The notes beneath the pieces are model-generated. The model was given only the letters and a program-made list of their open reading frames with translations. It had not been told where the DNA came from and made no database searches. From a virus: DNA of 38,378 nt. The first letter of the stretch is position 1. The number at the start of each line of letters is the position of its first letter. The position numbers and the translations under genes are program-made. Shown piece after piece: positions 2,884 through 38,378 of this stretch. The DNA is taken from positions 1 to 38,378 of IMG/VR virus record IMGVR_UViG_3300009161_000110. One strand, 5' to 3'.

Positions 2884-4023
2884 ATGAATAGATTATCACT
2901 TACTGAATCGGAATTGAAAAATAAGATGGTTCAAATATATAAAGAAGAACAAATTAAAATACTTGACGAAAAGTGGAATAAACTTTCAGGTGTTGATAGA
3001 CAATTTGTTCTTGAATTCTTAAAACTATTATATCCTGAAAAGGCTATCTTGGTTACTGAATCTCGTTGGTATAATACGTTGGGTGATATTGTTGGTATCT
3101 TTGACCCAACAGGTGTTGTTGATATTGTTAATGGTATTAGTTATTGGAGACAAGGAGATAAATTATTTGCAATATTATCATGGGTTTCTGCGGTTCCTTA
3201 TTTAGGGGATTTAATCGCTAAACCTGTTATTGGAGTTATGAAAATGGGTGGAGGTGCTGCGAAGGCGTTTAAAGCAGCAACTGTTGCAGGTGACGCTGCT
3301 AAGATGGCCGAGACTGCTAAAGTTGCGGGAGGACCAATCGCTAAATTGGTTGAGAACGCTCCGTCATGGGGAGGTAAACTAATGGATATGTTAAGAAGTT
3401 TAATTGGTAAAGTTCCATTCTTAGGTAGAGGATTAGTTAAAGTAATTGACGAATTTGTTGGTATCTTTACTAAGGCTGGAAAAGAGATGAAAACCTCAGG
3501 AGAAATGGCGACTAAGATGTTTGGTAAAGGTGAAGCTCAATTAAGTAAACTTGAGAAAGACCAACTAATGAAAGCCATGGAAAAACAAGGTAGTTTTAGA
3601 GGATTCAGAGATTATAAAGGTGAAAAACAATCATTCTCTAATAAATACGTTTCAGGTGGTATGGGAAGACTTTGGGGTAATAGAGCAACTAGGTCTTTAA
3701 TGAGAAGGACTAAATGGTATTTAGGATTATTAGATTTTATAGGTATCGCAAACTTTGTTGGACCTGATGAATTAGAACAAAAATACGGTGACTTACAAGC
3801 TAAAGTGGATGAATATAGTAAAACTGAAAAAGCACAAAAATACGCTGAAGAAGAATTTGGACAAACGGGTGGAGCGACTCCACCACCAATGCCGTCAACA
3901 CCAACAACACCAACGACATCATCTACAGGTGGTGGAGGAGGTATGGACGCAATATCAATGATATCATCATTATTAGGGGGTGGTAGTGGAACTGCTGGTA
4001 AAATTGCGGGGGCATTAATATAA
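2884..4023 (+). CDS. Tag A protein with hydrophobic central region and Gly/Pro/Thr-rich tail
   Basis: This 379-residue protein has the N-terminus MNRLSLTESELKNK (L-T-E at residues 6-8), a tag A variant. Residues about 60-120 contain LGDIVGIFDPTGVVDIVNG and a long hydrophobic stretch (FAILSWVSAVPYLGDLIAKP), reminiscent of the membrane-active or pretoxin linkers of polymorphic toxins. An Ala/Gly/Lys-rich amphipathic segment follows. The last 50 residues are low complexity, with TPTTPTT and GGGGG runs, ending in GAGALI-type hydrophobic residues. I cannot name a family. It may be a virion protein that meets the membrane at genome entry, but that is inference. The next gene starts 1 base after its stop. 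Confidence 0.82.
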   Translation: MNRLSLTESELKNKMVQIYKEEQIKILDEKWNKLSGVDRQFVLEFLKLLYPEKAILVTESRWYNTLGDIVGIFDPTGVVDIVNGISYWRQGDKLFAILSWVSAVPYLGDLIAKPVIGVMKMGGGAAKAFKAATVAGDAAKMAETAKVAGGPIAKLVENAPSWGGKLMDMLRSLIGKVPFLGRGLVKVIDEFVGIFTKAGKEMKTSGEMATKMFGKGEAQLSKLEKDQLMKAMEKQGSFRGFRDYKGEKQSFSNKYVSGGMGRLWGNRATRSLMRRTKWYLGLLDFIGIANFVGPDELEQKYGDLQAKVDEYSKTEKAQKYAEEEFGQTGGATPPPMPSTPTTPTTSSTGGGGGMDAISMISSLLGGGSGTAGKIAGALI

Positions 4024-4024
4024 T

Positions 4025-5461
4025 ATGAAGAAGTTAATTAAGGAAAGTGGTTTAAGAGAAATTAATAAACTCGCTAAACGATACCCAAAAGCGGAGATTT
4101 ATTTTCATCAAGATTTAGATGGTGTTACTACCGCAATTGCAATGAAAAAATATCTTGAGGATTATGGGATTAAAGTTGTTGATGCTCACGTCATCCAATA
4201 TGGGGACAAGGAATTTGCAGTTAAAAAAATTGACGCTAGAGGTGATACAATGCCCGTTCTTGTTGATTTTGCACATGGTAAACCAATGTTCATAATACAT
4301 ACTGACCACCACGATAGTCAGGCAGGAGCTGAAGAAACTAAATCAACATCGTTTAGACACTCAAGGTCAAACGTTGAAACAATATCACAAGTTGTATCAC
4401 CAAGTGATATATTCCCTGATAGAGACATTTTATTAATATCAACAGTAGATTCTGCAAATTTTGCAATGAATAATATCTCTATTGACCAAGTAATTAATTA
4501 TTTATTTAGTTTGGATAAAAATTCGTCAATTTCTAAAAATAAAATGGCTTTAGGATTAGTAGCCAATAAATTGTTATTAGCATTTAAAAACAAACCAGGG
4601 TTTCTTGAGGAACTTGTTATGAAATGTACTCCATCATTAATGAATATTTTACAGAATATTAAAAGAATAATGGAAGAAAAAGGATATGCAACTGTCCCAC
4701 AATTACAAAAAAACAAAGAAGGGTATATTCAACAAATGAAATCGCACCCTAATGTTAAAGTTGAAGGAAATATTATTGTTCAGTATGGTGGTGGTAATAT
4801 GATGAAACCAGGTTCTTACGATAGATATACACCATTTAAAAACAATCCTGAAGCTGATTTTATAGTTATTGCTTGGCCGTTAGGGTTGGTTCAAGCGTCT
4901 TGTAATCCTTTTAAGAAAGAAAGAGCGTTAAAAGGAATTGATTTAGGTCAAATCAAAGATGAGGTTTTATCTAAATGGGAATCTCAGTTAAAGGAAAAAG
5001 AAATTCCATTATCAACACTTAAATGGGTTTCTGAAATATCGGCAGGTCCTGAATCCGTTGGGTTTACATTTAAAGATTTTGCGGCAATTTATGGTAATAA
5101 ATTTGTTGAGATGGAAAACGGTAGAGAACTTTTGACTAAGTTAGGAGAGATTATGGAAAAACCTTATTCGAGTTTAAATAATGAGGAAAAAGAAATGTTG
5201 GAAAAATATACAGTTGATTCTTGGGAAGTTATTAAAGTAACAATTAAAGCTTGGGATGTTATTTTGGCGAATAGTGGAGGTCATAAATGTATTACAAATA
5301 TCTCAGGATTAAGTTATTTAGGTAGAGCATCACAAAAGAAAGAAAAATCTGGAAGTGGAGGTTATCAAAAAACTGACGAAGATGCTCCGTATGTTAAATT
5401 CACTAAGATGATACAAAGAGAGTTTGTTAGAGTATTACAGGAGAAAATTAATAACGGATAA
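4025..5461 (+). CDS. DHH/DHHA1-type phosphoesterase with tag-like N-terminus
   Basis: This 478-residue protein has the DHH family hallmarks. HQDLDGVTTAIAM (residues 28-40) gives the D-x-D metal ligands, V-D-F-A-H puts an aspartate at 81, TDHHD (93-97) is the signature, and VDSANFA follows. Near residues 418-421 SGGHK matches the substrate-binding GGH of a DHHA1 domain. Family members cut short RNA, single-stranded DNA, pAp or cyclic dinucleotides; I cannot say which applies here. The first residues, MKKLIKESGLREINK, contain I-K-E and L-R-E, resembling the other tags. Its 3' end overlaps the convergent DUF192 gene by 14 bases. With its tag it could be carried in the virion, perhaps to remove signalling nucleotides or nanoRNA (inference). 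Confidence 0.87.
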   Translation: MKKLIKESGLREINKLAKRYPKAEIYFHQDLDGVTTAIAMKKYLEDYGIKVVDAHVIQYGDKEFAVKKIDARGDTMPVLVDFAHGKPMFIIHTDHHDSQAGAEETKSTSFRHSRSNVETISQVVSPSDIFPDRDILLISTVDSANFAMNNISIDQVINYLFSLDKNSSISKNKMALGLVANKLLLAFKNKPGFLEELVMKCTPSLMNILQNIKRIMEEKGYATVPQLQKNKEGYIQQMKSHPNVKVEGNIIVQYGGGNMMKPGSYDRYTPFKNNPEADFIVIAWPLGLVQASCNPFKKERALKGIDLGQIKDEVLSKWESQLKEKEIPLSTLKWVSEISAGPESVGFTFKDFAAIYGNKFVEMENGRELLTKLGEIMEKPYSSLNNEEKEMLEKYTVDSWEVIKVTIKAWDVILANSGGHKCITNISGLSYLGRASQKKEKSGSGGYQKTDEDAPYVKFTKMIQREFVRVLQEKINNG

Positions 5462-5957: not shown

Positions 5958-5965
5958 TATCTTTG
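5958..5965 (+). promoter_or_regulatory. Bacteroidota-type promoter (TAnnTTTG) for smpB
   Basis: TATCTTTG lies 5 bases before the ATG at 5971, so the message is likely leaderless. This matches the -7 element used by the primary sigma factor of Bacteroidota. No exact TTTG is seen 20 bases upstream (TTAG there). Confidence 0.6.
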
Positions 5966-5970
5966 TGGTT

Positions 5971-6396
5971 ATGAAGAATAAAGTTCACATAGAGAATCGT
6001 AAAGTTAAATTTGAATATTTCATAGAGGAGAAATTCTCTGCAGGTATTAAATTGACTGGTATTGAGGTAAAGAGAATCCGAGAAGGAAAGGTCTCTATGA
6101 CGGACTCATTCTGTTATTTTAATAATGGTGAGTTGTTTATGAAAGGAATCCTCATCCAAGGAATTGGTAACGACAACATTGGTAGAGATAGAAAGTTATT
6201 GTTAAAGAAGAAACAATTACGAAAACTTGAGTCAGAGTTAACTAAAGGATTTACTATTATACCTCATATTCTTTACGAGAATGATAGAGGATTGTTAAAA
6301 ATGGATATTGTATTAGCCAAGGGTAAAAAACTTTGGGATAAACGTAATACTATCAAAGAACGTGATATTGACAGACAAATAAATTTGGCCAATTAA
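5971..6396 (+). CDS. smpB: SmpB (tmRNA-binding protein) homologue
   Basis: This 141-residue protein matches SmpB along its length: NRKVKFEYFIEEKFSAGIKL, LTGIEVKRIREGK, RDRKLLLKKKQLRKLE, GFTIIPHILYEN, then AKGKKLWDKRNTIKERD. SmpB binds tmRNA and helps it enter stalled ribosomes, releasing them. The KGKK(x)DKR C-terminal tail that senses the empty mRNA channel is present. I prefer the ATG at 5971 over the in-frame GTG at 5965, which lies inside the promoter. A phage copy could supply ribosome rescue when mRNA is degraded during infection, or redirect the host system. No tmRNA gene is visible in this window. Confidence 0.93.
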   Translation: MKNKVHIENRKVKFEYFIEEKFSAGIKLTGIEVKRIREGKVSMTDSFCYFNNGELFMKGILIQGIGNDNIGRDRKLLLKKKQLRKLESELTKGFTIIPHILYENDRGLLKMDIVLAKGKKLWDKRNTIKERDIDRQINLAN

Positions 6397-7882: not shown

Positions 7883-8191
7883 ATGAAAAATATTATTATA
7901 TCTGAAAAACAATTAGACAAATTAGTTAACAGAGTTAACAAAAGTGTTAACGAGAATCACGAAGAAGGTTCTTATATGGCTAAACAACAATTATTCACTA
8001 TTGCGACTTTAGCATATAAGATGTGGGAGTCTATGGAGGAAGGAGAACAACTTGAAGATTGGATGGAGAGTAAGATTGCTCAGGCAGAACAAAGTGTCAC
8101 TACAGTGGTTAAAACATTCATGTATAAAGACATTACGAATAAAGGTGGGATGGGTAAATTAAATTACGATGAAATAATTATTGGGAATTAA
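7883..8191 (+). CDS. Tag A protein, 102 residues
   Basis: The N-terminus MKNIIISEKQLDKLVNRV is tag A with I-S-E at residues 6-8. The remainder is helical, with an acidic stretch (WESMEEGEQLEDWMESK) and a Gly/Lys loop near the end; no family is recognised. It stands alone between an ATATTTAT box and a strong terminator. Confidence 0.82.
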   Translation: MKNIIISEKQLDKLVNRVNKSVNENHEEGSYMAKQQLFTIATLAYKMWESMEEGEQLEDWMESKIAQAEQSVTTVVKTFMYKDITNKGGMGKLNYDEIIIGN

Positions 8192-8528: not shown

Positions 8529-8969
8529 ATGGATAAACATTTAAAAGAAATATTGTTTGAAGAAGTGACCAAGAGAGGATTACTTTCAGAACAAAAAACA
8601 GGAACCAAAGATTTTGTTGAGATGGTTTCATTATTATTTCACTCAAGAACTCAATCCCATACATTACATCTACAAACTAAATCATTTGCCGAACATAGTG
8701 CGTTGAATACTTATTATGATGAGATTGGAGATATAGTTGACGGAATCATTGAATCATATCAAGGTAAATACAGTATCATCAAAGGTTATAAAAAATACGA
8801 TATTGAGGATTATAAAGATACTACAACAACTATTAACTACTTCAAAGAACTATATAGTAAAGTTGAAGATTTAAGAGACTGTTGCAAAGATTCATACATC
8901 CAAAATGAAATTGATAATGTTTGTAAATTATTAAACTCAACTTTATACAAGTTAAGATTCTTAAAGTAA
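8529..8969 (+). CDS. DUF5856-like ferritin/Dps-fold protein
   Basis: This 146-residue protein has the pattern H-x-x-H-L-x-T-x-S-F-A-E-H-x-A-L...Y-Y-D-E-I-G-D-I-V-D-G-I-I-E-S-Y-Q-G-K. It matches the four-helix, Dps-like arrangement of phage DUF5856 proteins: a helix with H/L/Q, then an E/D-rich helix ending YQGKY. The first 22 residues are a separate segment with F-E-E after I-L and L-L-S-E-Q, resembling a tag B-type targeting end. If the ferritin-like fold holds, a nucleoid-binding or metal-binding role in the virion or early infection is possible. I recognise the family with moderate confidence. Confidence 0.72.
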   Translation: MDKHLKEILFEEVTKRGLLSEQKTGTKDFVEMVSLLFHSRTQSHTLHLQTKSFAEHSALNTYYDEIGDIVDGIIESYQGKYSIIKGYKKYDIEDYKDTTTTINYFKELYSKVEDLRDCCKDSYIQNEIDNVCKLLNSTLYKLRFLK

Positions 8970-9409: not shown

Positions 9410-10375
9410 ATGAAAAACCTCATTAAAAAAATATTAAGAGAACAAACCGAAGGAAGTGAAAATAAACCTCTTTCGGAAAAGGAAATTAGACTGTTTAAGT
9501 ATCTTAATAAACATAAACATGATAACCCAACACAGGAGAAATTATTGGACCTAATCAAAACTATGATGCCAATGATTGGTAGAAATACAACTGATGCAAG
9601 ATTCTATTACGAAGTCTATACTGCGAACTATAGACCTGAGGGTGATTATGAAAACTTAGATGGGTCAAACTTTGTGGATTACAGAGGATTTAAACAAAAA
9701 AGAACGCCGAACAATGATGCTTACACTTATACTGCAGGTAAAATACCATTCAAAGGTTCCAACTTAGAAGGGTTTTGGAATGTTAACTCTAAAAACCAAT
9801 GGTATTATGTTGTTAAATCATATGAATGGTATCCAATCTATTTGTTCATTAATAATCAATGGTATGTTGTTAGTAACTCATATTCATCATCAACCTCTAA
9901 ACAAATATCACACTCTAATCCTAGAAGAGGTGGATACGATAATAATCTTAGAGATGAGGTAATTAGAGTTACTCCTGATGAGATGAAAACACTTATCAAT
10001 GGTAAACCTTTAGATGATGTAAAAACGGACAGAGTAACTCAATTTGCAAATGTTATTGGTAAAGACCTTAACAAGAGTCATCCGTCTCGTTTAATTAGTA
10101 TGGGATGGGGTAACGATAAGAAGAAAGTTAAGTTTACAATACAGAAAGTTGAAAAGAAAGGTGGTAAAATTCATATGACAATACTAATTGACAAAGCAGG
10201 AACAGTTGAAGGGACCAACAAGATGGTAGTTAACCCTGAAGGATATATAGTACCAAGTCCGTTCTCAGAAGATATTGAAAAGGGTATTGAACAAAGGTTG
10301 TTAAGTGATTATAGTATCTACCTTAACGGAGATAATACCAAGTTCAAATTTAATCACCCTAACAATAATGGATAA
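9410..10375 (+). CDS. Tag B-like protein, 321 residues
   Basis: The N-terminus MKNLIKKILREQTEG matches tag B (I-L-R-E at residues 8-11). A charged helical region follows (ENKPLSEKEIRLFKYLNKHK), then a domain rich in W, Y and N (FWNVNSKNQWYYVVKSY, WYPIYLFINNQWYVVS), strand-rich and reminiscent of binding modules but not identified. Beyond that is a lysine-rich region and a C-terminal strand domain. The start at 9410 is chosen because the box sits just before it and the tag begins exactly there. The gene overlaps the next one by 8 bases. Confidence 0.82.
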   Translation: MKNLIKKILREQTEGSENKPLSEKEIRLFKYLNKHKHDNPTQEKLLDLIKTMMPMIGRNTTDARFYYEVYTANYRPEGDYENLDGSNFVDYRGFKQKRTPNNDAYTYTAGKIPFKGSNLEGFWNVNSKNQWYYVVKSYEWYPIYLFINNQWYVVSNSYSSSTSKQISHSNPRRGGYDNNLRDEVIRVTPDEMKTLINGKPLDDVKTDRVTQFANVIGKDLNKSHPSRLISMGWGNDKKKVKFTIQKVEKKGGKIHMTILIDKAGTVEGTNKMVVNPEGYIVPSPFSEDIEKGIEQRLLSDYSIYLNGDNTKFKFNHPNNNG

Positions 10376-19805: not shown

Positions 19806-20390
19806 ATGGACTATAGACCAAAATTATATCAATACAGAAACGGTTTTTATCGGGACCGTAGAACTGACATTTTAAATGAAATCATTGACAGAGTAATACT
19901 ACCTGACGTTGGTAGTGCTTTACTTGATTTTTTAGTTATTAGAGAGATGGGTAAACGGGATTATGAAATGGTTTTTCTAACTAAACGATTTAATAGTAGA
20001 GATGTTTTGTTTCATGAAATCTATAATTTAGTTGAAGATTTGTTGATATGGTATGATATTTCAGAATTTGGAAATTTCAGAATTAGAATTGAGGGTGATG
20101 GTAATAACAGTGATTTAACTTTTTTTGACCTTTTAGGTTGGGTTTTACGTAACAATAGAGGTTTTCGTGATGCTCCTAATCATACTCATAGAAGATATCA
20201 CCAGGTTGTTGAATACATGAATCAACAGATGAAACAAGAACAACATGAGTATGATAAAAAGATGAAACTTGCTTTAAGTGGGGGAAGAGCATTTTATGAA
20301 AATACCGACTTAATTGTTATTCATAAACCTGAAAAGAAAAGTTTTATTAGGAATGTTAAAGATTATTTTTTAAATTTGTGGTATGTTTAA
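19806..20390 (+). CDS. Unknown 194-residue protein
   Basis: Basic N-terminus MDYRPKLYQYRNGFYRDRR, a largely helical middle (LFHEIYNLVEDLLIWYDI), a lysine/glutamine-rich helix and a hydrophobic end FLNLWYV. No family is recognised. It lies 2 bases after the primase-like gene and overlaps the next start, so it is co-transcribed with both. Confidence 0.75.
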   Translation: MDYRPKLYQYRNGFYRDRRTDILNEIIDRVILPDVGSALLDFLVIREMGKRDYEMVFLTKRFNSRDVLFHEIYNLVEDLLIWYDISEFGNFRIRIEGDGNNSDLTFFDLLGWVLRNNRGFRDAPNHTHRRYHQVVEYMNQQMKQEQHEYDKKMKLALSGGRAFYENTDLIVIHKPEKKSFIRNVKDYFLNLWYV

Positions 20391-21114
20391 AATGCTTGAA
20401 GTGGGGGGTAAGGTTAGAGACGAGATTTTAGGTCTCCAATCTAAAGATGTGGACTATGTTGTAGTTCCTAATGAATCACTCTTGGAGAAATACCAAGATG
20501 TTTATGAAATGTTTGTAATCTTGGAGACTTATTTAACAAATGAGAAGTTTGAAATCTTCTTATCAACACCTGATTGTTTTACCATTAGAGCAAAATTCCC
20601 TAAAGGACACAAGTACCAAGGGGTTGCAGACTTTGTTTTAGCTCGTAAAGAGATTGGTTACATTCCGAATACGAGAACACCAATTGTTAAACCTGGTACT
20701 CTATATGACGACTTGGAAAGACGTGACTTCACTCTAAACGCATTGGCGAAAGACGAAGACGGAACAATCATTGACTACTTCAACGGAATGGAGGATTTAA
20801 AGAATGGTATTCTTAGAACACCGCTCCCAACGAAAGTAACATTCAATGATGACCCACTTAGAATCTTGAGAGCGATTAGATTCTCCATCACCAAAGGTTT
20901 CACTATTCCCGCAACTATGGCTCTTACTATGGAGTCATACAACTACGATGAGAAGATGGTCGTTGTATCAACAGAAAGAATCCGTGAGGAACTATTCAAA
21001 TGTTTTAAACATGATACAATTGAGACCTTGAGAGTGTTGAATGAATTCCCTACACTTAGAAACTACGTATTCAAGAACAATATTTTATGGTTGAAACCAA
21101 CAATGGAACAATAA
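20383..21114 (+). CDS. tRNA nucleotidyltransferase (CCA-adding)/poly(A) polymerase family
   Basis: This 243-residue protein has class II nucleotidyltransferase motifs in order: VGGKVRD (7-13), KDVDYVVV with D22 and D24, a further D in the strand VADFVLA (D83), ERRDFTLNALA (112-122) and DDPLRILRAIRF (156-167). The family adds CCA to tRNA 3' ends; some members add only A or are poly(A) polymerases, and motif inspection cannot separate these. Bacterial members are usually 400 or more residues, so this is a compact version with a short C-terminal RNA-binding part. ATG 20383 overlaps the preceding stop; ATG 20392 is an alternative. It may keep tRNAs functional during infection. Confidence 0.9.
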   Translation: MFKMLEVGGKVRDEILGLQSKDVDYVVVPNESLLEKYQDVYEMFVILETYLTNEKFEIFLSTPDCFTIRAKFPKGHKYQGVADFVLARKEIGYIPNTRTPIVKPGTLYDDLERRDFTLNALAKDEDGTIIDYFNGMEDLKNGILRTPLPTKVTFNDDPLRILRAIRFSITKGFTIPATMALTMESYNYDEKMVVVSTERIREELFKCFKHDTIETLRVLNEFPTLRNYVFKNNILWLKPTMEQ

Positions 21115-27063: not shown

Positions 27064-27411
27064 ATGAAATTCATTATCTCAGAATCACGTATCAATCAAA
27101 TTATTGACAACTATTTAGATATGGTTATCAATAATTTGTATGCGACCCTTAGTAATCACGGAGGTCACGGACGACTTGATTTGGAGGACAAAGAAGGTAA
27201 CCCACTTGTTGTTATTTTTTTTAATAGACATAAACAAGAGATGGAAGTCATGATGGACACCTCATTATATAATGAGATTTACCACATGTTCTCAATGAAT
27301 GGATTTGATGATATCCAGCAACATTTAATCAGATGGTTTAAGGATAATTATGATGGTTTAGACCATATAACAGAGGTTGTGACCTACGATAAAGACGATT
27401 ACGAATACTGA
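27064..27411 (+). CDS. Tag A protein, 115 residues
   Basis: The N-terminus MKFIISESRINQIIDNYLD is tag A with I-S-E at residues 5-7. Next comes a segment with SNHGGHGRLDLEDKEGNPLV, a strand, then a helical end (IQQHLIRWFKDNYDG). The layout (tag, helix, strands, closing helix with F/W) recurs in several other tagged genes here, but no family is recognised. It is coupled to the next tagged gene by TGATG. Confidence 0.85.
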   Translation: MKFIISESRINQIIDNYLDMVINNLYATLSNHGGHGRLDLEDKEGNPLVVIFFNRHKQEMEVMMDTSLYNEIYHMFSMNGFDDIQQHLIRWFKDNYDGLDHITEVVTYDKDDYEY

Positions 27412-28283
27412 TGAAATATCTTATAACCGAAAACCAACAAGAGAAAGTAGTTCAATCATTAATAGACAACTTCTTTAATAGAAGAAGAGATGAGATTAAT
27501 AGGTTGTGGGATAATATGACCGAAGAAGAACAAGAGGACCATTTTAGTTATTATCAGTCACTTAATCAAATTGAGAAACTTAAAATAGACGAACTTCAAA
27601 CAGACGACTATTATTCTTGGACACTTTATCTTGATGCGTACATGAAAAGTACTTGGGACCCGATGGACGATTCCTACGATTTTGACGATTTATTTGACGC
27701 TATAGGTGATGACCTATCTAAATTTTTAGGTGTTGAAGTATTTGTTCCGTTGAATCAAATAATAGAATATAAGGGAGGTCTTACTGAAATGATTAAACTT
27801 GACATCAAAGTCGGTGACACTATTATGGGTGGGAAATTTAAGAACAAGAAAGTTGTTGTTAAAACCATTGGTAAGAATGATAAAGGTGACATAACTATTA
27901 ACGGTAAACCTTTATTACGTTTCAGGATTTTAAAAGAAGATACTAAACAAGAATCCTTCCAAAAGTTAATAAACACTTCCTTATCTACTCTTAAAGAAAA
28001 ATGTGATGACCAAGAAGAAAGAGGTACAGATGCTGATGAGATAGTTAATTTTGAATCTTGTGAAGAAATGGCGTTTACCAAATCAGTTGATGTTGTTGAT
28101 TATAAAATTGATAAAGGTATTATCATATTGTTTTTAGATTTCCATACGGAAGGTGTAAAAAACGTAGGAATTGAAAATTTAATATGGGAACTTCAATATC
28201 AAATACAAACATTGACGGGTAAAGGAACCGTTAAGTTGGTTCATAACGATACTATATTTAATAAGATAGATTCAAATTGGTAA
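27411..28283 (+). CDS. Tag A protein with two alpha/beta domains, 290 residues
   Basis: The N-terminus MKYLITENQQEKVVQSLID is tag A with I-T-E at residues 5-7. The first half ends with a module YSWTLYLDAYMKSTW...FLGVEVFVP, like the small domain of other tagged genes. A strand-rich part follows (DIKVGDTIMGGKFKNKKVVV), like an SH3-type barrel. The C-terminal part repeats the alpha/beta pattern (VDYKIDKGIIILFLDF). No enzyme motif is seen. It has no box of its own and depends on coupling to the gene before it. Confidence 0.84.
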   Translation: MKYLITENQQEKVVQSLIDNFFNRRRDEINRLWDNMTEEEQEDHFSYYQSLNQIEKLKIDELQTDDYYSWTLYLDAYMKSTWDPMDDSYDFDDLFDAIGDDLSKFLGVEVFVPLNQIIEYKGGLTEMIKLDIKVGDTIMGGKFKNKKVVVKTIGKNDKGDITINGKPLLRFRILKEDTKQESFQKLINTSLSTLKEKCDDQEERGTDADEIVNFESCEEMAFTKSVDVVDYKIDKGIIILFLDFHTEGVKNVGIENLIWELQYQIQTLTGKGTVKLVHNDTIFNKIDSNW

Positions 28284-28617: not shown

Positions 28618-30414
28618 ATGAAAAGATTATTAATAACTGAAGACGATAGAAAACATATATTAAAGTTATACGGACTTTTAAATGAGTCAATTGACCCTAA
28701 TTCAGGTGGTACTATTACTATTAATAATTATTATCCTGCAGGTTGGTATTCATTGGATAATAAAGATACTAAGACAGGTAAAATTATTAAAAACCAATTA
28801 AATGAAGCGTTAGCTCAAGTAACTGAATTTGTTAAAAAACACCCTGACTCAATAGTGAGTGTTAAATTTATATCACAAGAATCTGCAATACCTAATAAAG
28901 ATAATGAAGGAAAGGCTGGTGGGACGTGGTTAGAAGTTGGTGGTTTGAGTGATTTGAGAAAACAATATTTGGAACCCGCCATTAAAGAATATTTTGATAA
29001 TTTAAAAGCTCAAGGAGTTATTGGACAAACAGTTGAAGTACCTCCGTTAGAATATGAAAAGAAAAAATTTGTAACTTCATGGGTTGGGACTCCTTTTTGT
29101 CCCGCAAACGCTACTATTAATCAACAAAGAAGTGAATGTGTTAATAAATATAGGGAAGGTGTTAAAACTAATAATGCTGACGTTATGTCGTTTAAATCTA
29201 AATATGATGATGAACAATCAAGTCAATTAGTGATTACTGTTAGATTAAAAAATACAACAATCGTAACAACAAACCCTAGTGGTAGTACGACTGATTATAC
29301 CCAATGTGCGGTTGAATTAAACGTTAGAGTATGGGTTGAAAGTCACAATTGTCAAAACGCTGAGTTTTTTATTTTTGCCAACAATTTACTTCTTTATAAC
29401 TCAAAAGGAGGTATGACGGCAAATTTAAATAACGCCGATACTACTAGAGGTATACCAAAAACACAATCAGAACCATTGTTCTCACCTGAATATTTAAACC
29501 CTGGATATGGTTATTTAAAGAATGGAGATGGTACAGGTTCGTATAGTTATGGTAGGATTGATGAAACAGGTGATGGTGGAGGTAGTAGGTCCGACTCCTT
29601 TAAAATAACCAAAGAACAATCGTTAGAACTAATGGATAAATCTAACGGTAAAATTAGTCTTTGGATGATTGCGACAACATCATCAGCTCACAAAGATATT
29701 CCAAATGTAACAATTACAAAAACTGATGGTACTGTGATTTACAATAAAGCTCCTAAAATAGTACAGGGTAAATTGTTAACATTAGATGGGTGTACTTATA
29801 AAGTAATTGAAGGTAATGATGAGACAGTTCCTGATGTTACAGGTTATGTTAATATAATCAGACAAGAAAGAATGAAAATGCAGTCACAATCAGAACTCGG
29901 TGCTGAAGCTCAGACAGGAAATAAAAAACAACAAAAGAAAAAACAAGCGGTATTAGATAGTAAATCGGTAATTTTAGATAGGTCTACTGAATTGGTTACT
30001 GAAATGACTAATTTTTTAAATTATTTAAAACCTGAGTTAGAAAATGCACAACCAAAAGACGCTAAGGGAGTTGTTACAGGTAAAAATGTTGGAACACCTG
30101 AAATCCAAACAGAAATTACTAAATATTATAAATCATTCTATAATAAGTTAACATATTCAGGAACACCTGGTAATCCTGAACCACAATTAATTAGAGATAA
30201 TGATGGTGATTATGTTAATAAAACGGTTAATAGTAATGATTTATTTGGTGATATTAGAATGTATATGAACCAATTCTATGAAGGGTTTGATGCGGTATAT
30301 AAAGATGTTGAAGGTAATATTGCACCTAACGGAATCCAAAGGAATAATTCTGGAGGTTTATTTGGGAATAAAATATTATCTAATATTAAAAAACTAACAC
30401 AATATACAATATAA
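28618..30414 (+). CDS. Tag A-type large protein with OmpA-like N-terminal region, 598 residues
   Basis: The N-terminus MKRLLITEDDRKHILKLYG has I-T-E at residues 6-8, then L-L-N-E-S at about 20-24. Residues about 45-140 (YYPAGWYSLDN, FVKKHPDSIVSVKFISQES, LSDLRKQYLEPAIKEYF) have the helix-strand spacing of an OmpA-like peptidoglycan-binding domain. The usual D-x-x-x-x-x-x-x-x-N/R contacts are not clear. A strand-rich middle with several Cys and a C-terminal helical part with a lysine/glutamine run (KKQQKKKQ) follow. It may be a virion protein acting at the envelope. It is the longest tagged protein here. Confidence 0.8.
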   Translation: MKRLLITEDDRKHILKLYGLLNESIDPNSGGTITINNYYPAGWYSLDNKDTKTGKIIKNQLNEALAQVTEFVKKHPDSIVSVKFISQESAIPNKDNEGKAGGTWLEVGGLSDLRKQYLEPAIKEYFDNLKAQGVIGQTVEVPPLEYEKKKFVTSWVGTPFCPANATINQQRSECVNKYREGVKTNNADVMSFKSKYDDEQSSQLVITVRLKNTTIVTTNPSGSTTDYTQCAVELNVRVWVESHNCQNAEFFIFANNLLLYNSKGGMTANLNNADTTRGIPKTQSEPLFSPEYLNPGYGYLKNGDGTGSYSYGRIDETGDGGGSRSDSFKITKEQSLELMDKSNGKISLWMIATTSSAHKDIPNVTITKTDGTVIYNKAPKIVQGKLLTLDGCTYKVIEGNDETVPDVTGYVNIIRQERMKMQSQSELGAEAQTGNKKQQKKKQAVLDSKSVILDRSTELVTEMTNFLNYLKPELENAQPKDAKGVVTGKNVGTPEIQTEITKYYKSFYNKLTYSGTPGNPEPQLIRDNDGDYVNKTVNSNDLFGDIRMYMNQFYEGFDAVYKDVEGNIAPNGIQRNNSGGLFGNKILSNIKKLTQYTI

Positions 30415-30529: not shown

Positions 30530-31222
30530 ATGAAAATAGTTGCGGTGGGAGATACCCACGGAAGAAGTAAGTGGAAAGAAATAGTAGACGTAGAAAAAGA
30601 GTTTGATAAGTTCATATTCATTGGTGATTATTTTGATGCAAAAGATGGAGGTTATAGTGCAAACAGACAGATTGAAAACTTTAAGGATATCGTTGAGTTC
30701 AAACGAAGTAATCCTGACAAAGTAATCCTATTAATTGGGAACCATGATTTCCATTACCTAAAAGGAGTTAACGAAGAGTACTCCTCATTTCAATGGAGTT
30801 ACAGGAAAGATATTAACGATGCTCTACAACCTATTGTTGATGAAGGATTGATTCAGATGTGTTATCAATACAACAAGTATTTCTTTAGTCATGCGGGGAT
30901 TACAAAGACATGGTGTAAGAACAATAACATCAACTCAGACAACTTAGTGAATGATATAAATGACTTGTTTAGAGACGATGTGACGAAGTTTAGATTCACA
31001 ATGGGTGAGAACGGTAGTTATGGTGGAAATGATGTCACACAACCACCAATATGGGTCAGACCACAGTCTTTAGTTAAAGATATGGTTGACGATATTATCT
31101 GTATCGTTGGACACACTCAAGTTAAAGAAGTGACATTTATGAAAGAAGATAATCTAATTCTTATTGACTGTTTGGGAACAAATGACGATTATTTGGTAAT
31201 TGAAAATGATGAAATAATATAA
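30530..31222 (+). CDS. Calcineurin-like metallophosphoesterase (Ser/Thr phosphatase type)
   Basis: This 230-residue protein has all the metal and catalytic motifs: GDTHGR (7-12), GDYFD (32-36), GNHD (70-73), SHAG (120-123) and GHTQ (194-197). The order and spacing fit lambda-type protein phosphatases and related diadenosine tetraphosphatases or 2',3'-phosphodiesterases. The substrate cannot be told from sequence. The host-type promoter suggests early expression, so it may change host phosphoprotein or nucleotide signals. The lipoprotein gene follows after 2 bases. Confidence 0.9.
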   Translation: MKIVAVGDTHGRSKWKEIVDVEKEFDKFIFIGDYFDAKDGGYSANRQIENFKDIVEFKRSNPDKVILLIGNHDFHYLKGVNEEYSSFQWSYRKDINDALQPIVDEGLIQMCYQYNKYFFSHAGITKTWCKNNNINSDNLVNDINDLFRDDVTKFRFTMGENGSYGGNDVTQPPIWVRPQSLVKDMVDDIICIVGHTQVKEVTFMKEDNLILIDCLGTNDDYLVIENDEII

Positions 31223-34167: not shown

Positions 34168-34614
34168 TTATATCCAATATCCTGATACGATGATATCTTT
34201 GGCGTGAGTTCCGTAACGTTGATTAATTAATTTCATTAAATCTTTCTTCCATAAAGATGGGTCGTTAAACATTGTCTCAAGTCTTTCAGCCATATCCTCA
34301 CCAACAACTATTGTATCAAACTTGGGGTCCTGTATGTCAGGTTGTTCATAACAAGGTTCAGGTAAGTCTCCCTGAAGTTCTTCAGGATAATCACCGTCAT
34401 CATCATAATGTTCACCATCAACAAGTTTAAACAGGTAGTTATCATACTCATCGGCTGGTAATGTAAAACCAACTGCATATTGGTCACAACAAACCCCCAT
34501 TCCACAATTAAAATCGGCCCAAGTATAATACATATTACCATATCCTTGGAACTCCATCTCCAAGAACTTTCTAAGGACACCACTTAATTTATTTTCTGTT
34601 ATAATGTATTTCAT
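34168..34614 (-). CDS. Tag A protein, 148 residues
   Basis: The start at 34614 gives MKYIITENKLSGVLRKFLEM, tag A; a longer frame from 34635 lies inside the preceding gene and would hide the tag. The body is acidic (DGEHYDDDGDYPEELQGDLP) with four cysteines (CGMGVCC; PCYEQP) that could bind metal. No family is recognised. Last of four tagged genes in one operon. Confidence 0.86.
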   Translation of the reverse strand: MKYIITENKLSGVLRKFLEMEFQGYGNMYYTWADFNCGMGVCCDQYAVGFTLPADEYDNYLFKLVDGEHYDDDGDYPEELQGDLPEPCYEQPDIQDPKFDTIVVGEDMAERLETMFNDPSLWKKDLMKLINQRYGTHAKDIIVSGYWI

Positions 34615-34615
34615 A

Positions 34616-34939
34616 TTATATTTCTTTTCTTTCAACTGAATAAACTACTAATTCCCATTCATTACCGTAACTTGTCAAATCAATCCCGAATAAATCTTCA
34701 AGGACACTCCAAAGACTTGATTTAATTTCTTTTAATTCGTTATATTTTTTCTCACTTTTAACGTTATTAATGTAGACCTCAACAACTTTCCTAACTATCT
34801 TTGTTTCCCCCTTTTCATTCGGGCCCGAACCCAAATGAACACGTTTAGTTTTAAAATCAACATCCATAGCGTCATAATTCTTAAGGATATACTCCTTAAT
34901 CATAGACTCAATTCTATTTTCTGTTATAATGTATTTCAT
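34616..34939 (-). CDS. Tag A protein, 107 residues
   Basis: The N-terminus MKYIITENRIESMIKEYILK is tag A. One alpha/beta unit follows: KIVRKVVEVYINNVKSEKKY, a helix SSLWSVLEDLFGIDL, then the strand EWELVVYSVERKEI. It overlaps the next-upstream gene by 4 bases and lies 1 base before the gene downstream. Confidence 0.86.
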   Translation of the reverse strand: MKYIITENRIESMIKEYILKNYDAMDVDFKTKRVHLGSGPNEKGETKIVRKVVEVYINNVKSEKKYNELKEIKSSLWSVLEDLFGIDLTSYGNEWELVVYSVERKEI

Positions 34940-35298
34940 TCCCGTTTTCTATTAATATATTCTCTAATGTAATCTTGGATTTTTACCTGTAATTTATCCA
35001 AGTAGTCATTCCAAAGTTCCTCACACAATTTTGGTGATTCATCCATATCAATACCAATAAATAGAAACCAATCCTTTAAATTGTATCTGCCAGGTGAAGT
35101 AAATGTAAAACTTTCAGGGTTGTTAAACGATAAACCATATGGATTATCAGCATAAGGAAACTTTATATGTGCGGCATATTCATACTTGTTATACTCATAA
35201 TACATTCCACCGAATATCTCAGTCTTGTCCACAAGCATATCAAGAAACTTACTGTAGACCTTAGAACGTAATTGTGATTCTGTTATTATATATTTCAT
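34936..35298 (-). CDS. Tag A protein, 120 residues
   Basis: The start at 35298 gives MKYIITESQLRSKVYSKFLD, tag A; the upstream in-frame ATG at 35316 would hide the tag inside the protein. After it comes a strand-rich segment with Y/F/N/P residues (YYEYNKYEYAAHIKFPY) and a C-terminal helix with a basic end. No family is recognised. Confidence 0.86.
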   Translation of the reverse strand: MKYIITESQLRSKVYSKFLDMLVDKTEIFGGMYYEYNKYEYAAHIKFPYADNPYGLSFNNPESFTFTSPGRYNLKDWFLFIGIDMDESPKLCEELWNDYLDKLQVKIQDYIREYINRKRE

Positions 35299-35299
35299 G

Positions 35300-35683
35300 T
35301 TAGGACATATTAGCACTTCTCACGCTCACAACTTTTTTATCAGGGAATAATGACTCAAATACATCTGACATCAGATACTTGTCATGAACATACCATAAAG
35401 GATGAGGTAACATCTTTTCAAAAACATCAGCAAAATCACGACTAAAAAATAATTCACCTCTATCACCACCTTTGTAAATAAGGAATGATATAATTCTATT
35501 ATCGTCAGAGTCATATAAATTTATTCTGTCATCATGTGTACTATAACCTTTAATTCTATTAATGATTAATGGAACCACCTTATCCTTTAATTTAGGATAT
35601 TCATCAGAATATTCGGAAGTTCTCCAATCCCTTTCAAGTTCGGATAACAATTCAAATTGAGATTCTGTGATAATGTATTTCAT
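35300..35683 (-). CDS. Tag A protein, 127 residues
   Basis: The N-terminus MKYIITESQFELLSELERDW is tag A. A segment with KVVPLIINRIKGYSTHDDRI follows, then RIISFLIYKGGDRGELFFSR and a C-terminal helix-strand. First gene of the four-gene operon running down to 34168; its promoter is shared back to back with the plus-strand operon at 35713. Confidence 0.86.
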   Translation of the reverse strand: MKYIITESQFELLSELERDWRTSEYSDEYPKLKDKVVPLIINRIKGYSTHDDRINLYDSDDNRIISFLIYKGGDRGELFFSRDFADVFEKMLPHPLWYVHDKYLMSDVFESLFPDKKVVSVRSANMS

Positions 35684-35689
35684 ATAATC

Positions 35690-35708
35690 ATAAATATACG
35701 ATATTTAT
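35690..35708. promoter_or_regulatory. Perfectly symmetric divergent promoter between tag A and tag B operons
   Basis: ATAAATAT-ACG-ATATTTAT: an exact inverted repeat of the box with a 3-base centre. The minus-strand box is 6 bases from ATG 35683; the plus-strand box is 4 bases from ATG 35713. This is the clearest bidirectional promoter in the window. Confidence 0.65.
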
Positions 35709-35712
35709 TAAT

Positions 35713-35739
35713 ATGAACTTACATGAAATAGAAGAATAA
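35713..35739 (+). CDS. Eight-codon leader frame that looks like a tag B stub
   Basis: M-N-L-H-E-I-E-E then stop, 4 bases after a perfect box, and its TAA overlaps the ATG of the next gene (TAATG). The first five residues match tag B (MNLHE). It is either a cut-down remnant of a tagged gene or a leader peptide that couples translation to the operon. Confidence 0.45.
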   Translation: MNLHEIEE

Positions 35740-36146
35740 TGAACCTACAGGAACAAATATCAAGAATACAATCAATGATGGGTGTTATCAATGAAGGATT
35801 ACACGACACATCTTGGGAAAATGAAGAAGGGGATAAAATAACCCTTATGGATTTATTAAACGCAACCAAAGATATTCCTGTGGAAAACATATCTGTGGAA
35901 GAATTAAAACCACACTTATTAACTTGGGATGGTGATGAAGATGAGGTTAAAAAAATAGATAGTGCTGACTTACAATACCCTATACTAATTTTTGTTAACG
36001 ATGATGGTAAGTTCATAACAATTATAGATGGGCACCACAGAGCACAGAAAGCAGCAAAACAAGGATTAGAAACAATCAAAGCAAAGGTGATACCAATAAA
36101 TTCATTATCGAAAGATATAAGAAAAGTGTTTAAACATATTAAATAA
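35739..36146 (+). CDS. Tag B protein with ParB/sulfiredoxin-like domain
   Basis: This 135-residue protein begins MNLQEQISRIQSMMGVINEG, tag B with an extra G-V-I-N-E-G. The second half has YPILIFVNDDGKFITIIDGH then HRAQKAAKQG, residues 97-101 being D-G-H-H-R, the signature strand-turn-helix of ParB N-terminal and related nucleotide-binding domains. Phage members include nucleases, kinase-like and CTP-binding forms; which applies here is unknown. First large gene of the tag B operon. Confidence 0.8.
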   Translation: MNLQEQISRIQSMMGVINEGLHDTSWENEEGDKITLMDLLNATKDIPVENISVEELKPHLLTWDGDEDEVKKIDSADLQYPILIFVNDDGKFITIIDGHHRAQKAAKQGLETIKAKVIPINSLSKDIRKVFKHIK

Positions 36147-36147
36147 T

Positions 36148-36792
36148 ATGGACTTACAAAAAAACATAAAAAGAATATTACGGGAAGAAGTTAACGAGAT
36201 GTATTCTAAACCATCAGAAAAGATGGATAGAATAATTGATGCTTGGTTAGAAAAACTTTTCTCAGGTGCCAAGATGTATTACAAAGAAACATATAAATCA
36301 AGACATGACTTTGATTGGTGTAATAACGGATTAGAGATTGCAAGTGTTATATTAAATTTCAACAATAATGAAGATGTGTATGATGATAAACGACCAACAA
36401 GTGAAAGAGATTTTGAAAAGGGTAGTGTAACAATTCCCAAGAGTCTTATTGATGATTTAGTTAACTATGTTCCGATAAGAAGAAACTACTTAAAATACAA
36501 AATTGAAGAATGGTTTGAGGATAATATACTCCCATCAGTGATTGATAAAATGGGAAGGACCGACATATATATCAATGAGATTATTGAGTACCCTAAAAAG
36601 GTAGAAGTTTGTGTCCCTCCTGTAGAAAAACCTGAAGGTGTAACTGAGGAGGACATGATAGAACTTATTCTTAAAACTACTTTATATAAAAGGGATGAAT
36701 TGTTAAAAAGAGAAGAAGAAGAACCTGGGTTTATAGAGAAAATTTATTTAGGTAAACTTCATAACGCCGAGATGGATAGATTAAGAGGATAA
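36148..36792 (+). CDS. Tag B protein, 214 residues
   Basis: The N-terminus MDLQKNIKRILREEVNEMY has L-R-E at residues 11-13, a close tag B. The body has a helical first half (IIDAWLEKLFSGAKMYYKET) and a second half with VNYVPIRRNYLKYKIEEWFE and P-rich VCVPPVEKPEG. No family is recognised. One base separates it from the genes on either side. Confidence 0.84.
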   Translation: MDLQKNIKRILREEVNEMYSKPSEKMDRIIDAWLEKLFSGAKMYYKETYKSRHDFDWCNNGLEIASVILNFNNNEDVYDDKRPTSERDFEKGSVTIPKSLIDDLVNYVPIRRNYLKYKIEEWFEDNILPSVIDKMGRTDIYINEIIEYPKKVEVCVPPVEKPEGVTEEDMIELILKTTLYKRDELLKREEEEPGFIEKIYLGKLHNAEMDRLRG

Positions 36793-36793
36793 A

Positions 36794-37174
36794 ATGAATA
36801 TACAAGAGAACATAAGAAGAATTAGAGAAATGATGGGGGTGGATGACTACGAGTTAATCCCAACAGACCTACTTAGGAGACCAAATGGACATATTGGTAC
36901 ACAGGGGTTTACTAGTGAGTTTTTATTTAATTTAATAAAACATATATCAAAAGTTAAAGAATTTGAATTACCAAAATACGACTCACTAAAAGAACTGATT
37001 AATAAATTAAAAGACTCACAAGAAAAAATTGATATGATATTTGATTATGTGAAATCAGACCCAATAGAAGCGTATAAACTACCCGATGAGTCTTATAGTA
37101 TTAAAGATGGTAATCATAGGGCTAATTTATTAAACTTACTTGGGGTAGATAAATTACCAATTAAATTATTATGA
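36794..37174 (+). CDS. Tag B protein with second ParB/sulfiredoxin-like domain
   Basis: The N-terminus MNIQENIRRIREMMGVDDYE is tag B with I-R-E at residues 10-12. The C-terminus YSIKDGNHRANLLNLLGVDK contains D-G-N-H-R (105-109), the ParB-like motif. It is not a simple duplicate of the 35739 gene: lengths and the middle region differ. It overlaps the next gene by ATGA. Confidence 0.8.
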   Translation: MNIQENIRRIREMMGVDDYELIPTDLLRRPNGHIGTQGFTSEFLFNLIKHISKVKEFELPKYDSLKELINKLKDSQEKIDMIFDYVKSDPIEAYKLPDESYSIKDGNHRANLLNLLGVDKLPIKLL

Positions 37175-37764
37175 ACCTACACGAGAACATAAGAAGAATA
37201 TTAAAAGAAGAAACTGAAGGTATTGACAATTTCTTAAATGAAATAACCCAAGTCCATGATATGTCAGATGAACTCAAAGACTTTGTTAAACAATTTATTG
37301 AGGAATCAAATTGTAAAAGGATAAACTTTTCAAAGTTCAATATCCCTGCCATGGGACTTGCATTAGAGAGCGGTGTGTTAATTAACTCAATGTCCCTAAG
37401 ACAACCATTACCATTTTTATTGTTTTTAATCTTTCATGAAGTGGCTCATCAATACCAATTTAAAAAGTATGGTGAGGAGATGATGTATAATTGTTATCTT
37501 GGTGAAATTCCTGAAAGTGAAGCGGCTGAGTTTATGAAACACACAGAAGAGGTTGCTGACGATTTTGCTTATAGAAAAATAAGACAATTACAGAAGTTAA
37601 AATTGGTTGGACCATATACACCTCCACAAATGTATAAAAACGTTCCTATACAACAGATTACCATGATGGTTAATAATTATAGAAATGACATGAGAAGAAA
37701 GAATATTGACTCACCAAAGAAAGTGAGTGAATATTTTTATAACATGGTTAAAAGTGAGTTATGA
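37171..37764 (+). CDS. Tag B zinc metallopeptidase (HExxH)
   Basis: This 197-residue protein starts MNLHENIRRILKEETEG, tag B with L-K-E at residues 11-13. FLIFHEVAHQYQF gives the zinc-binding and catalytic H89-E90-x-x-H93, and TEEVADDFAYRK about 33 residues later supplies the third ligand E126 or E127 and a stabilising acid, as in gluzincin or IrrE-like peptidases. A hydrophobic helix precedes the motif. The substrate is unknown. It could act in the head, on the cell wall or on a host protein after injection. Confidence 0.84.
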   Translation: MNLHENIRRILKEETEGIDNFLNEITQVHDMSDELKDFVKQFIEESNCKRINFSKFNIPAMGLALESGVLINSMSLRQPLPFLLFLIFHEVAHQYQFKKYGEEMMYNCYLGEIPESEAAEFMKHTEEVADDFAYRKIRQLQKLKLVGPYTPPQMYKNVPIQQITMMVNNYRNDMRRKNIDSPKKVSEYFYNMVKSEL

Positions 37765-37882
37765 ATATAAACTTGGGTGGGAAGATTTACCCGAACAAGA
37801 AGAAATAGAATTCGTAACTAAGATTTCCGACACGTTAGAAAAAAAAATTAATCAGTTATATGAATTTTGTAATAACAAATAA
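37754..37882 (+). CDS. Probable 42-residue protein with GTG start
   Basis: A GTG inside the end of the peptidase gene opens MSYEYKLGWEDLPEQEEIEF (M from GTG), then a helical tail ending LYEFCNNK. It fills the gap exactly to the next tagged gene (1 base between). Acidic, untagged and without a recognised family. An alternative ATG frame of 15 codons in the same place is less convincing. Confidence 0.48.
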   Translation: MSYEYKLGWEDLPEQEEIEFVTKISDTLEKKINQLYEFCNNK

Positions 37883-37883
37883 C

Positions 37884-38231
37884 ATGAACCTACAAGAGAG
37901 TATACATAGAATTAAAGAAATGATGGGGGTTAATAATGAAGAAACCGAACAACCAATACTAAATGAGTTGGGGGAAAAATATTACATTGATTGGGATGAA
38001 AACTATGGTAAGTCGTTTAAATTGGTTCATACACCTGAAGGTGCTCAAAGTGGTGTAGAATGGACCCCTGATTTAATATCAATTGTTACACCTGAAAATA
38101 CAAATGCGTGGTATGAATGGGAAGAATTACCTGTAGAAAAATTAATGAGATGGAAAGGAAATTGGAATGATATCCAAAAAACGGCATTAGCGGTTCACAA
38201 ATATAATCAAATAGTTAGAAGTATGTCATAA
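37884..38231 (+). CDS. Tag B protein, 115 residues
   Basis: The start at 37884 gives MNLQESIHRIKEMMGVNNEE, tag B with I-K-E at residues 10-12; an upstream in-frame ATG would add eight residues and hide the tag. The body is W/Y/E-rich (DWDENYGKSFKLVH; NAWYEWEELPVEKLMRW) with no recognised family. Confidence 0.83.
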   Translation: MNLQESIHRIKEMMGVNNEETEQPILNELGEKYYIDWDENYGKSFKLVHTPEGAQSGVEWTPDLISIVTPENTNAWYEWEELPVEKLMRWKGNWNDIQKTALAVHKYNQIVRSMS

Positions 38232-38232
38232 T

Positions 38233-38378
38233 ATGAACTTACAAGAGAACATAAGAAGAATATTAAGGGAAGAAAAAGACCGTACAAAGTTAATTAAAAA
38301 AATAATTGATTATTCTAATATTTTTGAATATGAACATTTTTGTGGGGTTGATATAATAAACCCTGAAGAAAGAACCGA
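38233..38378 (+). CDS. Tag B protein, N-terminal part, runs off the window
   Basis: It opens MNLQENIRRILREEKDRTKL, the most regular tag B here with L-R-E at residues 11-13, and is still open at the last base. A helix and F-E-Y-E-H-F-C-G-V-D follow. One base after the previous stop, so the tag B operon continues beyond the window. Confidence 0.82.
   Translation, partial: MNLQENIRRILREEKDRTKLIKKIIDYSNIFEYEHFCGVDIINPEERT

Follow-up and report, generated by a model that had tools for sequence, protein, structure and literature searches.

What does a short N-terminal sequence do when it is common to a whole operon of otherwise unrelated proteins? The question is raised by the end of the IMG/VR record IMGVR_UViG_3300009161_000110. 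Its 38,378 bases, analysed as a whole and called the window here, are probably a fragment of a larger phage.

A common start in the last operon of the window

From position 35739 to the contig end all six main genes begin, as read from the sequence, with MN(L/I)(Q/H)ExIxRI..., a start that we call tag B (Table 1). The first-pass annotation had claimed this common start for 35739, 36148, 36794, 37171, 37884 and 38233, and all six read as claimed; the start at 37884 is an internal ATG of an ORF listed from 37860. It had also placed the tag on every large gene of the operon, which holds for the six main genes, while an ORF of 51 aa within the operon (37727-37882) is untagged. Tag B has a short sub-form, MNLQENIRRILRE↓E, and a long sub-form, MNLQENIQRIKEMMGLINE↓. 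A tripeptide (I/L)-(R/K)-E, proposed to lie at residues 10–13 throughout, is found there in part: among the six starts only 36148, 37171 and 38233 have L-(R/K)-E ending at residue 13. In 36794 and 37884 I-(R/K)-E ends at residue 12, ahead of MMG, and these leaders are long-like without the final motif. The E at residue 13 is missing from 35739, whose motif is INE at residues 17–19. Of the cargoes behind the tags, 36794-37174 has an IKDGNHRA motif, as in its ParB-like neighbour, and 37171-37764 is by sequence a HEVAHQ zinc-metallopeptidase-like protein.

Table 1. Leaders and related features of the window. An arrow marks the predicted end of a leader or a junction between cargo modules.
Feature	Position	Strand	Leader or motif	Gene start	Gene or remark
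Minimal leader	4025..4045	+	MKKLIKE↓SGLR		DHH-family protein
Possible leader	8529..8591	+	MDKHLKEILFEEVTKRGLLSE		DUF5856 protein, conserved domain from residue 47
Short-form leader	9410..9442	+	MKNLIKKILRE↓Q	MKNLIKKILREQ	gene 9410-10375
Tag-A-led gene, two fused cargo modules	27411..28283	+	GGLTE↓MIKLDIKVGD		junction at codon 126 (27786-27788)
Tag-A operon	34168..35683	-	MKYIITE(N/S)		four genes with this start, divergent from tag-B operon
Divergent intergenic stretch	35684..35738	.	ATAAATA		on both strands
Tag-B leader, long form	35739..35795	+	MNLQEQISRIQSMMGVINE↓GLHDTSW		cargo 35739-36146, ParB-like domain
Tag-B leader, short form	36148..36186	+	MDLQKNIKRILRE↓E	MDLQKNIKRILREE	cargo 36148-36792
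Tag-B leader, exact end uncertain	36794..36829	+	MNIQENIRRIRE↓MMG	MNIQENIRRIREMMG	cargo 36794-37174
Tag-B leader, short form	37171..37209	+	MNLHENIRRILKE↓E	MNLHENIRRILKEE	cargo 37171-37764
Tag-B leader	37884..37919	+	MNLQESIHRIKE↓MMG	MNLQESIHRIKEMMG	cargo 37884-38231
Tag-B leader, short form	38233..38271	+	MNLQENIRRILRE↓E	MNLQENIRRILREE	gene truncated by contig end

Leader-like starts are also found elsewhere in the window. The gene at 9410 had been noted to begin MKNLIKKILRE and, read so, carries a leader of the same general kind; its relative in L046 begins MKDIIKKILK. Two looser starts had been named as possible members. The one at 4025 does belong, the leaders of its DHH relatives all ending phi-x-E, and the one at 8529 is plausible in view of the position of its conserved domain. 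Further leader-like starts are those of 2884-4023 (MNRLSLTESELKNKMVQIYKEE), 7883-8191 (MKNIIISEKQLDKLVNRVNKSVNE) and 28618-30414 (MKRLLITEDDRKHILKLYGLLNE). The window also encodes a DNA methylase (803-1669), an SmpB homologue (5965-6396, + strand; Pfam E 2.8e-42) with relatives in Lak and other huge phages, a poly(A) polymerase/CCA-adding head domain (20383-21114) and a calcineurin-like phosphoesterase (30530-31222).

The ATAAATA between the two divergent operons resembles the T4 late-promoter core and is, by this sequence resemblance, a candidate promoter. Motifs of the TATAAATA/ATATTTATA type occur several-fold over shuffles upstream of genes in G006, G007, G008, G011 and the window; the enrichment holds for genes generally, and the tagged operons do not stand out for TATAAATA-like upstream motifs. 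In the upstream regions of G006 TATCTTTG was found 16 times compared to 0.4 expected, and it resembles the Bacteroidota promoter element TAnnTTTG. These upstream motifs suggest a Bacteroidota host for these phages.

Spread and specificity of tag B

A degenerate DNA pattern of the tag matched at least 119 stretches of viral contigs, and many of these belong to records of 100–335 kb. Among the matches listed there are about 200 distinct tag-B ORFs, whose cargoes represent 79 domain families by clustering. As in a capsid targeting sequence (CTS) of the T4 type, a short N-terminal leader is thus common to otherwise unrelated proteins. A strict DNA pattern of the long form matched in 40 of 320 loci examined, all of them tag-bearing viral loci, and had no match in 84,980 bacterial and archaeal genomes (257 Gb). 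When a tag-B score matrix was applied to four large phage records, clear N-terminal copies reached about 23–35 bits, the highest scores of the matrix, and nearly all matches inside proteins stayed below about 18 bits. No isolates carrying tag B were found. We also considered tag B as a copy of the propeptide helix of the capsid protein, in which LKENVAQLYENQASHLINE is similar, and rejected this; the segment is not among the best matches of the matrix.

A protease motif at the end of the leader

The annotation had seen a T4-type cleavage tripeptide in the leader. Among 134 distinct long-form leaders 87% have (I/L/V/M)-x-E within residues 15–22, compared to 14% after permuting residues 15–46 and 6–10% in downstream windows. 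For the short form, a motif ending at residue 13 is part of the class definition. Some leaders are without it at the expected place, as are the ends of 36794 and 37884 and a leader with MMGIGSKN in G006. The prohead protease motif (L/I-x-E) that marks the end of a CTS leader is therefore present, though not in every leader. Leaders in this group are 7–24 residues long and end (I/L/V)-x-E, and the position of this putative cleavage site at the leader/domain boundary of unrelated leaders agrees with the claim. Across whole proteomes the N-terminal excess of (L/I)xE was modest and, in one of four phages, at about the level of random contigs. We rejected it as an estimate of cargo number because random contigs have too high an N-terminal background.

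Leader swapping on the same cargo

Orthologous cargoes exchange whole leaders, and the swap point lies at (I/L/V)-x-E. The metallopeptidase family of 37171, in which HEVAHQY is conserved, bears tag B in the window and in L321, a near relative of tag B in L322, an LTESDL-type leader in L323 and tag A in L324-L338, and is leaderless in L339 and L341. In the ParB-like family of 35739 the leader is tag B, tag A (L390, L410) or of the LTESEL type (L386); the motif lies at most 8 residues from the domain start in 12 of 14 distinct junctions, and an E directly precedes the domain in all 14. Unrelated or diverged leaders of the DHH family of 4025 end phi-x-E in 8 of 8 cases, two of them with a T4-like YxxFIxE, and DHH homologues in two phages of 635-642 kb begin MISKYNQFINE and MLRKYGQFINE, close to the T4 leader. 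Conversely, the families of the tag-A genes 34168 and 35300 of the window bear tag B in other phages. Beside the head operon, a protein with RYMFFSNLEQM has a different leader in each of four phages, and all four leaders contain LxE. Of 183 pairs of homologues that differ in their leaders, 24% have the boundary motif in both members, compared to 5.8% at control positions.

We regard leader swapping on orthologues as the strongest evidence that these sequences act as targeting leaders. Since the same cargo families bear tag A, tag B and the LTESDL type in different phages, the three would do the same job, and judged by sequence they are interchangeable. The earlier proposal that the two tags define two cargo classes or two entry routes does not fit this distribution, in which tags A, B and a third family occur on the same cargo families.

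Protease and head genes

A gp21-type protease (Peptidase_S77) is encoded by all 11 tag-B records above 200 kb and by 8 of 12 further tag-bearing records of that size. This amounts to 19 of 23 tag-bearing records >200 kb above the cut-off, with no S77 match above it in the other 4, and is in keeping with the view of the annotation that the leader has a T4-type cleavage site. The window itself, a 38-kb fragment, has no protease match, so that the link between leader and protease rests on related records. S77 was also found in 5 of 18 random AT-rich viral contigs and in 3 of 5 of those >147 kb; because this base rate is not low, the co-occurrence of tag and S77 is supportive, not decisive. In G006, G007, G008 and G011, where head genes were named by resemblance and order, the protease lies between the portal and major capsid genes and adjoins an acidic scaffold-like protein. 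The N-terminus of the major capsid protein contains ENQAS(H/F)LINE↓A where T4 gp23 has FLTE↓A.

Two observations on head genes stand apart. In G008 (269 kb; L149-L162) the S77 protease, the portal and the gp23-like capsid protein are each encoded twice, at about 26.7-35 kb and 230-238 kb. One set resembles Flavobacterium phage immuto and the other the tag-B group; the record might hold two capsid systems or be a chimeric assembly. In L420 and L421 (LR756502, LR745206; 635-642 kb) other N-termini recur, MKHLKLYEYF, MKYLKYFE and MKHLNRFDE, which resemble the T4 leader; ORFs of about 700-730 aa in these huge phages contain a divergent S77 match.

Codon pattern and structure models

The first seven codons of tag B are unusually conserved as DNA. 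Codons 2, 3 and 7 deviate from genome usage (AAC 79% versus 30%, CTA 51% versus 8%, ATA 97% versus 33%), and tags within a contig share more synonymous codons than tags of different contigs (0.70 versus 0.60; 0 of 500 permutations). The 5' ends coding for the tag have probably been copied within genomes, and since the first seven codons are conserved as DNA, such recombination would explain part of the tag sharing. AlphaFold models of 37171 and 36148 show a confident domain and a helical leader of lower confidence. Fold searches with both models gave no significant match; 37171 has a weak resemblance to small metallopeptidases (abylysin, 4jiu), and a profile search weakly suggests the same.

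Fused cargo modules

Cargo modules that follow a leader singly are found within longer ORFs as well. Of 89 internal junctions, some of them overlapping, 62 (70%) have the motif within 3 residues, compared to 17% in the control for the same window of residues, and 38 have it exactly at the junction. The second module of 27411-28283 follows DINE↓ in L325; in G007, where the leader is tag A, it comes after QLTE↓, and in L339 it is found by itself. An ORF of 664 aa in L074 (1656, + strand) runs on from a tag-B start, with several modules that stand alone elsewhere, and an ORF of 531 aa in L175 (4713, - strand) is a further multi-module example. The protease motif at the module junctions suggests cargo polyproteins cut in the head: one leader would target a chain of effectors into the prohead, and the head protease would cut at (I/L/V)-x-E junctions to give separate injected proteins. 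We give this reading slightly less than an even chance.

A probable targeting leader and its alternatives

The leader pattern can be read directly from the sequence, and a large group of T4-like phages likely has several interchangeable capsid-targeting leaders, tag B among them. Packaging, cleavage, core binding, ejection and the roles of the cargoes are what we infer from the pattern. The amphipathic leader of 12–20 residues would bind the prohead core or scaffold during head assembly and the attached protein would end up inside. A gp21-type (S77) protease would then cut after (I/L/V)-x-E, freeing the cargo and destroying the leader, and the freed cargo would be injected together with the DNA and act early on the host.

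Amphipathic N-terminal helices often serve as localisation signals, and the leader is helical in the AlphaFold models, at a confidence below that of the domain. The leaders might accordingly be tags for localisation or assembly within the infected cell, directed to a replication compartment, membrane or scaffold, with no routing into the head. We consider this unlikely, as it leaves unexplained both the T4 prohead protease motif at the domain boundary of unrelated leaders and the swapped leaders of the same design on a protein of the head cluster. If the leaders were instead propeptides of ordinary inner-head structural proteins (scaffold or inner body), no injected effectors would be involved. 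T4 gp22, gp24 and gp67 do have the same kind of sites, and the head gene cluster includes one tagged protein. However, among the cargoes are P-loop proteins, a ParB-like domain and a HExxH metallopeptidase-like protein, and from phage to phage the cargo content differs strongly, as that of structural genes does not, which makes this explanation very improbable.

The biased codons and the synonymous sharing within contigs would also be expected of recombination handles or translation-start sequences, conserved as DNA for gene exchange or expression. Against this, the amino-acid chemistry is retained while codons vary at other positions, and orthologues exchange tag B for the sequence-unrelated tag A or LTESDL type with the phi-x-E end retained; copying within genomes fits the targeting model too. 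There is little chance, in our estimate, that the shared starts are handles of this kind.

If tag B is a capsid-targeting leader, a leader with a protease motif at a domain boundary would allow candidate injected proteins to be read from sequence. Candidate early effectors, many of them of unknown fold, could then be catalogued for phages without a cultured member. It would further suggest that head targeting depends on a loosely defined helix and a protease site, met by many unrelated sequences, and genes could therefore be recruited as cargo by a short added cassette.

Comparison with known systems

In T4, leaders of 10-19 residues direct internal proteins to the core; the 10 N-terminal residues of IPIII are enough for packaging, and L/I-x-E is the motif behind which gp21 cleaves (PMC9026906). 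Ip1-3 have the leader alone in common and differ in the GmrSD restriction enzyme that they block; at least 10 internal proteins of this kind are encoded by T-even relatives (PMC12373910). Read from the genome, the T4 leaders are MKTYQEFIAE (IPIII), MAKINELLRE (gp24) and MELITE (Alt). The phages studied here resemble T4 IPI-III and Alt in the short leader on dissimilar proteins, its L/I-x-E end, the S77 protease and the variable, clustered cargo genes. They differ in their leader sequences, YxxF being absent from tag B, in the several leader families per phage, in leader swapping on the same cargo, in the fused multi-cargo ORFs and in the number of leader-bearing genes per phage, roughly 20 or more compared to about four in T4. 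Tag B shows no sequence similarity to the T4 leader MKTYQEFIAE, which is resembled only by the DHH homologues of the 635-642 kb phages. Tag B would resemble a T4-type CTS in its working, not in its sequence.

In phiKZ and SPN3US, inner-head propeptides are cut after glutamate by the S77 relatives gp175 and gp245; phiKZ has the motif (S/A)-x-E, and in SPN3US several propeptides are longer than 100 residues (PMC5694885, PMC9026906). These are giant phages too, with many inner-head proteins that bear N-terminal propeptides and with two diverged paralogues whose N-termini are identical. The leaders here are not of the phiKZ type, which has (S/A)-x-E and propeptides often >100 residues. The cultured Flavobacterium phage vB_FspM_immuto (Bacteroidota host) has a related major capsid protein and an S77 protease. 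It has its own repeated leaders, MENFDLKKFLVENKLTxNSKxLKE and MKKQILSEQFRRMQKLAGIITE; these are other sequences, and tag B is absent. A search of the open-access literature found no paper describing the leaders reported here. In summary, the leaders point to a new variant of the T4 capsid-targeting system, one in which several interchangeable leaders would be used within one phage group.
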